Part shown: positions 27,232 through 27,531 of the stretch, piece after piece
Numbering within the stretch: the stretch's first letter is position 1
How the letters are laid out: every line of letters begins with the position of its first letter
Origin: Microvirga pudoricolor
GTDB taxonomy: Bacteria; Pseudomonadota; Alphaproteobacteria; Rhizobiales; Beijerinckiaceae
Reading direction: 5' to 3'
Assembly (NCBI RefSeq): GCF_016892705.1
Contig: NZ_JAFEMB010000001.1
Coordinates: 1,240,001-1,304,000 of the forward strand
Length of the DNA stretch: 64,000 bases
Notes under the pieces: model-generated
Seen by the model: the letters and a program-made list of their open reading frames with translations, nothing else
Database searches by the model: none
Told to the model about the DNA's origin: nothing
Position numbers and translations under genes: made by a program

Positions 27232-27531
27232 TGGCGTCCGCGGAGGGATTCGAACCCCCGACCTAAGGTTTCATCCCACTTCGGCTTTCGCCGCCGCCCG
27301 GGTGCGCCCCGGGCGTTCGTGGTCTGGACTGTCCCTTCACCCTAGGCCGGAGCCCTTAGGTGCTGCCCGTCCAGTCTCTACACCTTCCCCTGGCGGGGCT
27401 TGGCTCGGGATTGGCATGCCGCGGTGGCGGCGCAGCTTTCCCCGACTTTGAGCAGATCGATTGCGGCGTTTCCGAACCGCAACCCCCAATTTTTAGGAAA
27501 CCTTCGCTCTATCCTGCTGAGCTACGCGGAC
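27232..27531 (-). tRNA. tRNA-Arg(CCU), interrupted by a group I intron
   Basis: Reading leftward, the 5' exon (27531-27495) and the 3' exon (27271-27232) join into a full cloverleaf. The acceptor pairs GTCCGCG with CGCGGAC, the D stem is GCTC/GAGC, and the anticodon stem AAGGT/ACCTT carries loop TTCCTAA with anticodon CCT. The variable loop is AGGTC, the T arm is GGGGG-TTCGAAT-CCCTC, the discriminator is G and CCA is encoded at 27234-27232. The intron lies between anticodon position 36 and base 37. Self-splicing introns in tRNA-Arg(CCU) are known from Agrobacterium and other alphaproteobacteria. The tRNA reads AGG codons. Confidence 0.95.
27272..27494 (-). ncRNA. Group I self-splicing intron (IC3-like) in tRNA-Arg(CCU)
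   Basis: The 223-nt insert is bounded by the last base of the anticodon (U, as group I introns require at the 5' splice site) and a terminal G before the 3' exon. Its core matches conserved group I elements as seen in the Azoarcus tRNA-Ile intron: a GCCAATCCCGAGCCAAG block, GGAAGGTGTAGAGACTGGAC (P7/J region), CACCTAAGGGC, GGGTGAAGGGACAGTCCAGA, and a 3' GGCGAAAGCC-type stem. A GGGGG internal guide near the intron start can pair with the exon UUCCU through G-U and G-C pairs. No homing endonuclease is encoded, so it is a minimal, probably vertically kept intron. Confidence 0.92.

Follow-up and report, generated by a model that had tools for sequence, protein, structure and literature searches.

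The window, that is, the whole stretch of 64 kb of DNA that was analysed, carries on its minus strand a tRNA-Arg(CCU) gene interrupted by a group I intron. The sequence-only reading had proposed such a split gene at 27232..27531 without giving a strand, and its coordinates turned out to be exact according to ARAGORN in intron mode. Both strands around 27.2-27.6 kb were examined, and the gene is composed as follows:

27232..27531, minus strand: the whole intron-containing tRNA-Arg(CCU) gene with encoded CCA, 300 nt (ARAGORN with introns)
27495..27531, minus strand: exon 1, 37 nt, with the acceptor 5' strand, the D arm, the anticodon stem 5' strand and the anticodon CCU
27272..27494, minus strand: 223-nt group I intron inserted after U36, with G (omega G) as its last base (RF00028 and R2 matches)
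27232..27271, minus strand: exon 2, 40 nt, from A37 to CCA, with the anticodon stem 3' strand, the T arm and the acceptor 3' strand

ARAGORN in intron mode returned the gene as tRNA-Arg(cct)i(38,223), and the joined segments 27531-27495 and 27271-27232 give 77 nt that form a normal cloverleaf and are called tRNA-Arg(cct) by the same program. The anticodon loop is UUCCUAA, closed by the stem AAGGU/ACCUU, and the insert is located between U36 and A37, after CCU, as is characteristic of the known family of tRNA-Arg introns. These data agree with the earlier proposal of 223 nt inserted between the anticodon and base 37 of a tRNA whose exons close to a full cloverleaf with encoded CCA (ARAGORN and direct reading), the insert beginning after U and ending in G. 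The splice sites are those of a group I intron by direct reading, since exon 1 ends in U36, the IGS starts with G, which gives a U.G pair, and the intron ends in G. When introns were off (the default), ARAGORN found no tRNA gene in the whole 64 kb window, just as had been anticipated for a tRNA finder without intron models. A promoter and terminator scan around the gene found none, an uninformative result. Concerning the size of the intron, the term "minimal" used in the sequence-only reading is too strong, because 223 nt is not far below the median, which is 230 nt (range 212-318) for the tRNA-Arg(CCU) introns measured at 101 loci, duplicates included, and related tRNA introns of about 200 nt exist, for example one of 204 nt (L032).

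An alternative splice register (UUU/CCU...GGG/AUG, a His anticodon on an Arg body) was preferred by the splice-site classifier and was set aside. It was rejected because the body is that of a tRNA-Arg; the CCU register is given by ARAGORN and by most relatives, and the Bartonella intron that the authors of PMC7717549 located with the help of 5' RACE in tRNA-Arg(CCU) has CCT at its flank.

The elements of the intron, drawn from an alignment of 11 introns or, where indicated, read directly from the sequence, are the following:

27483..27487, minus strand: P1, IGS GGGGG, pairing with the exon 1 end UUCCU, with U.G at the splice site (direct reading)
just before the IGS, minus strand: P10, two possible pairs between UU and the AA at the start of exon 2 (direct reading only)
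27461..27482, minus strand: P2 hairpin with GGAAAC in the loop (direct reading)
27450..27455 with 27363..27368, minus strand: P3, CUGCUC with GGGCAG, four of six pairs changed on both sides in the 11 introns
27405..27445, minus strand: P4 (UCGGG/CCCGA) and a short P5, no P5abc (alignment)
27383..27403, minus strand: P6 and P6a (alignment)
27372..27378 with 27326..27331, minus strand: P7, GAGACUG (bulged A) with CAGUCC, six pairs, 100% paired in the 11 introns
27338..27362, minus strand: P8, 94.8% of cells paired, one pair changed on both sides in the 11 introns
27276..27322, minus strand: P9 (CCAC/GUGG) with a P9a hairpin and a GAAA-capped P9b hairpin (direct reading)

This arrangement contains the complete group I core (P3, P4, P6, P7 and P8, with the P3/P7 pseudoknot), and all 31 written core pairs are standard pairs in the window copy. 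Across the 11 introns, 98.5% of 341 cells in P3, P4, P5, P6, P6a, P7 and P8 are paired, a count that leans in favour of the structure since it was drawn from the same 11 sequences. When the partner columns were shifted by 1-3 positions, pairing fell to 26-48%. Moreover, 9 of the 31 core pairs changed on both sides, whereas the 500 shuffles gave 3.1 on average and not one of them was as high. These changes are distributed among P3 (4), P7 (2), P5, P6a and P8 (1 each), while P4 and P6 are invariant in the 11 introns and hence uninformative on covariation. The innermost pair of P7 appears as A-U, G-C or U-A, and P7, with its 5' strand GAGACUG, also holds the G-C pair that presumably binds guanosine. 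Introns of subgroup IC3 lack P5abc and have a short P6 and tetraloop-capped P2 and P9. The window intron shows all these features, P2 and P9 being taken from sequence reading and not from covariation, so that the IC3-type core proposed earlier is in line with these characters.

Regarding the covariance models, RF00028 matched the minus strand at 27504-27308 with 36.8 bits (E 6.2e-8), and no match appeared in the window at the Rfam gathering score, which is 50 bits. The suggested check against the Rfam group I model thus gave a match, but one that falls short of that score. In the genome itself and 100 relatives, RF00028 matched in 11 of 101 genomes, always within tRNA genes, and 8 of the 11 matches lie under the gathering score, which is a database threshold and not a biological feature. 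A second model, R2, was built from 14 tRNA-Arg(CCU) introns of other alphaproteobacterial genera, among them Agrobacterium vitis and Bartonella tamiae, with no Microvirga sequence. It gave a single match in the window (27455-27324, minus strand, 143.2 bits, E 1.1e-34 under a rough calibration) and no second match in the 64 kb up to E 10. With these two E-values, the feature is beyond chance.

The genome that holds the window (4.77 Mb, 16 contigs, 99.99% complete) gave 47 matches to RF00005, of which ARAGORN reads 46. A second tRNA-Arg(CCU) was not found among the 47: none of the 46 is CCU, and the remaining match, at C8:1740792-1740897, was not called as a tRNA. This last locus (L056) is a 106-nt tRNA-like sequence with an enlarged anticodon arm, and 22 nt around its D arm are equal to tRNA-Arg(CCU). 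It should be noted that tRNA-Ile(GAU) and tRNA-Ala(UGC) are also absent among the 47 matches in this 16-contig genome, which leaves room for repeats missing from the assembly and, strictly speaking, for a hidden second CCU gene. Neither of the two computational outcomes that the sequence-only reading had named against itself was found, given that RF00028 and R2 both match and no other CCU gene was seen among the 47. The other arginine tRNAs of the genome read UCU, ACG and CCG, and AGG represents 19 of the 574 arginine codons in ten reading frames of the window. Accordingly, tRNA-Arg(CCU) would be useful to the genome, although the UCU tRNA could partly cover AGG.

We assign a probability of about 0.96 to the reading that this is the only detected tRNA-Arg(CCU) gene of the genome, split after U36 by a compact IC3-like group I intron and spliced to a 77-nt tRNA-Arg. 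While the gene anatomy, the core covariation, the family membership and the lack of another detected CCU gene come from the data themselves, the splicing step leans on the relatives, and by analogy with them the window intron most likely cuts itself out. In BbgpI, the homologous tRNA-Arg(CCU) intron of Bartonella bacilliformis, splicing is reported both in vivo and in vitro, and GTP-dependent self-splicing is described (PMC7717549). In the window gene, the precursor RNA would fold into a form in which the 5' splice site is kept in P1, with its U.G pair; guanosine would dock in P7 and attack after U36; and the freed exon 1 would then attack after the terminal G of the intron, joining the exons into a 77-nt tRNA-Arg able to read AGG.

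Two other explanations of the locus were considered. The insert could be a relic of a group I intron that has lost the ability to splice, in a decayed tRNA gene, with AGG read through wobble by tRNA-Arg(UCU). The presence of a tRNA-Arg(UCU) gene, the rarity of AGG and the weak Rfam score (36.8 bits) are consistent with this, but broken helices would be expected of a relic and every core pair of the window copy is standard, its exons give a full tRNA with CCA, and its core is 94% identical to another Microvirga copy, all of which makes decay very improbable. The idea that two unrelated tRNA-like halves happen to flank intergenic DNA, forming a cloverleaf by chance, draws on nothing except the failed default tRNA and Rfam scans; it is refuted by the E-value of about 1e-34 obtained with a model of other genera and by the occurrence of tRNA-Arg(CCU) at the same conserved locus across the 48 Microvirga genomes compared, and its probability is negligible. 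The split and spliced tRNA-Arg(CCU) gene is therefore the reading retained here.

The window intron is a new example of an already known alphaproteobacterial family of tRNA-Arg(CCU) introns, and the comparative results are the part added by this work. Paquin, Heinfling and Shub reportedly described the tRNA-Arg(CCU) group I intron of Agrobacterium tumefaciens in 1999. The link to Agrobacterium tRNA-Arg had already been made in the sequence-only reading, and a stretch of Agrobacterium vitis carries an intron at the same CCU site. The window intron shares with this family the tRNA, the site after CCU, the core (143 bits with R2) and a similar length, and its five nearest rows in the 173-row core tree described below are all Arg(CCU) introns. 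On the other hand, the host genus, Microvirga, is new, the P6 and P8 loops are shorter than in the R2 consensus, and the IGS is GGGGG with exon UUUCCU, whereas most of the named stretches, compared by eye, have GGGCG with AUUCCU. Among more distant systems, the IC3 intron of the Azoarcus tRNA-Ile(CAU) has in common with the window intron a compact core, the lack of P5abc and GAAA-type P2 and P9 loops, but it is located in a different tRNA, and P9 of the window intron has two hairpins. Group I introns of tRNA-Leu(UAA), which are common in the same bacterial family, have a related core but are inserted after U34 and lie mostly apart from the Arg(CCU) introns in the core tree. Further papers bearing on the comparison with the known family are PMC3984707 and PMC11835236.

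A scan of named genomes with one exact core pattern, which favours close relatives because the match has to be exact, gave 45 stretches. Except for one tRNA-Leu(CAA) in Belnapia arida, all of them (44 of 45) are tRNA-Arg(CCU) split at the same site, and they include relatives of Rhizobium, Rhodobacter and Acetobacter as well as three Microvirga. ARAGORN reads 43 of the stretches as cct; that of Agrobacterium vitis is misread, but it too becomes cct in the splice register that P1 and the terminal G define. The core model R1 matched 96 of the 397 genomes from the family and 49 of the 385 from the class. Of 206 loci read, 191 could be given a host tRNA, duplicates included, and 15 were unclassified. 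The hosts are Arg(CCU) (101 loci), Leu(UAA) (64), Lys(UUU) (7), Thr(GGU) (6), Lys(CUU) (5), Leu(CAA) (5) and Thr(UGU) (3), with introns after position 33, 34, 35 or 36. Among these 191 labels, 21 were set by hand: 16 classifier labels (His AUG 10, including the window gene, Asn GUU 4, Leu AAG 1 and Arg CCG 1) became Arg(CCU) according to the tRNA body and the family register, and by exon reading L145, L149 and L167 became Leu(UAA) and L192 and L275 became Lys(UUU). The core tree has 173 rows, after leaving out 9 of the 191 loci with an uncuttable core and 9 with a core identical to another row; it has few columns, long branches and 89 of 168 inner branches open, and its use is limited to label clustering and nearest rows. 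Its host labels need 13 changes, where shuffled labels need 64.9 on average, which suggests that these introns seldom switch to another host tRNA.

Concerning the less common hosts, tRNA-Thr(UGU) genes carry group I introns of the same core model after U34 in three loci (L041 in G052, L160 in G133 and L206 in G167), and tRNA-Thr(GGU) genes carry them after U36 (L227 in G241, L185, L186, L265, L266 and L267). The lysine hosts, tRNA-Lys(CUU) (L178, L188, L189, L247 and L285) and tRNA-Lys(UUU) (L191, L192, L270, L274, L275, L276 and L278), are split after U34 or U35. Five tRNA-Leu(CAA) genes are also interrupted (L034, L273, L282, L284 and the Belnapia arida L084), four of them after U33; in L084 exon 1 ends in C34, and the splice-site pair would be C-G instead of U.G. 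A limited literature search, with one spelling each (tRNALys and tRNAThr), found no report of Thr or Lys hosts in proteobacteria. The tRNA-Leu, -Thr and -Lys hosts of related alphaproteobacterial introns are therefore a wider range than this search gave, and we do not claim that they are unpublished.

Within Microvirga, R1, which was built with the four carriers included, finds the intron in 4 of 48 genomes: the window genome (G000), G018 (taken to be M. vignae), G029 and G034 (taken to be M. guangxiensis). With the spliced tRNA as query a match was obtained in all 48, and in the 44 intronless genomes the gene was read as an intact 77-nt tRNA-Arg(CCU) in 28 and recognised by a BLAST match across the splice junction alone in 16. 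In 48 of 48 genomes the tRNA match and the same M48 peptidase gene are at most about 6 kb apart (positions compared by eye), and a SNase homologue is present within the 1.5-kb flanks of 28 of the 30 fetched loci. These neighbours define one conserved tRNA-Arg(CCU) locus. The acceptor stem is GTCCGCG in the intron-bearing genes and GGTCCCG in most intronless ones.

The distribution of the intron was compared with quick trees of two proteins: the M48 protein (48 genomes), whose gene adjoins the tRNA, and PutA (46 genomes, without G004 and G021, whose matches of about 52% identity were taken as paralogues). The intron label changes 3 times on the M48 tree and 4 times on the PutA tree, and the starred branches require no fewer than 2 and 3 changes, respectively; gain and loss are indistinguishable in these counts. 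M. vignae is sister to the intronless G014 (support 94 and 100). G034 and G029 group with the intronless G015 on the PutA tree (99), and on the M48 tree they form a pair (94) within a 9-row set that also holds G015. The window genome is placed near the base of both genus trees, in open forks. Compared with shuffled labels, the intron label shows no stronger clustering (as low in 500 of 500 shuffles for PutA and in 38 of 500 for M48), four carriers giving little power. Furthermore, 3' of the tRNA no homology was detected in 8 of 9 compared pairs from eight Microvirga loci, G034 and G029 being the pair that shares it, and a more sensitive search gave some 3'-side homology between G018 and G015. 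The tRNA-Arg(CCU) locus may be an integration hotspot.

In M. vignae, the native upstream flank is followed by the opening 26 nt of a tRNA of the GGTCCCG type. This remnant is identical to the G014 gene and then breaks off, and the intron-bearing gene starts 170 nt beyond it. On the other side, detectable homology to G015 stops about 2.8 kb away. The insert (L384, 4063-6880) measures 2.8 kb at most. It holds the intron-bearing tRNA and two ORFs, for which Pfam gave no family in either case and identified no integrase. The last 32 nt of the intronless gene at its 3' end, searched with up to 3 mismatches, are found in both intronless controls (G014 and G015) and in none of the four carriers (G000, G018, G029 and G034). 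The remnant beside the native flank indicates that an intronless gene was resident before in M. vignae, and together with the absent 3' end it shows that most of that gene was replaced by a segment no longer than about 2.8 kb. These sequences point to whole-gene replacement in M. vignae, a claim limited to this species and not extended to the window lineage; a search of the window for a half-gene scar of the M. vignae type gave no match with up to 3 mismatches.

The intron could instead be ancestral in Microvirga and lost in most species, and not gained by gene replacement. In favour of this history, all copies are at one locus and the window genome branches low in the genus trees, where the forks are open, but the intronless-type remnant of 26 nt directly at the native upstream flank of M. 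vignae and the different acceptor stems of the two kinds of gene speak against it. An ancestral tandem of an intron-bearing and an intronless gene would also fit. On balance, we find an ancestral intron doubtful, though it deserves to be kept in view. Beyond M. vignae, it could be speculated that whole replacement genes are the vehicle by which the intron spreads in Microvirga: foreign segments would bring an intron-bearing tRNA-Arg(CCU) into the single locus and break or remove the resident intronless copy. An advantage of the intron may be that it interrupts the anticodon-arm sequence used by tRNA-seeking integrases, thereby shielding the incoming copy from further integration, and one intron lineage would occupy at least seven tRNA species and four anticodon-loop positions. 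We regard this general scheme as unlikely. In any case, 223 nt are too short for a homing endonuclease gene, so a moving intron probably travels with its tRNA gene.

Related introns are also present on mobile elements. Three plasmid loci (L392, L393 and L396, from pCTX-M3 and others) hold one in a tRNA gene (134-136 bits with R1), and in two of them a predicted aac(3)-II gene is located about 0.7 kb from that tRNA. As for the window gene, 1272 plasmid records, most of them enterobacterial, match it in part, and in none does the match reach 80% of the query. In the Gordonia phage Daredevil (L395), ARAGORN reads a tRNA-Lys(UUU) with a related intron (110.6 bits with R1), which has an integrase gene on one side and, on the other, two small ORFs followed by an HNH endonuclease gene.

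These results reveal that the only detected CCU tRNA gene of this genome, the one that reads AGG, is missed both by ARAGORN in its default mode and at the Rfam gathering threshold, and that annotation software easily overlooks it. The tRNA-Thr and tRNA-Lys hosts are leads on how ribozymes of this kind change their site. Moreover, the sporadic occurrence of tRNA-Arg(CCU) introns becomes testable at one locus in 48 genomes, 4 of which carry the intron and occupy scattered positions in two protein trees, and the half-gene scar of M. vignae shows that the whole gene was replaced there.
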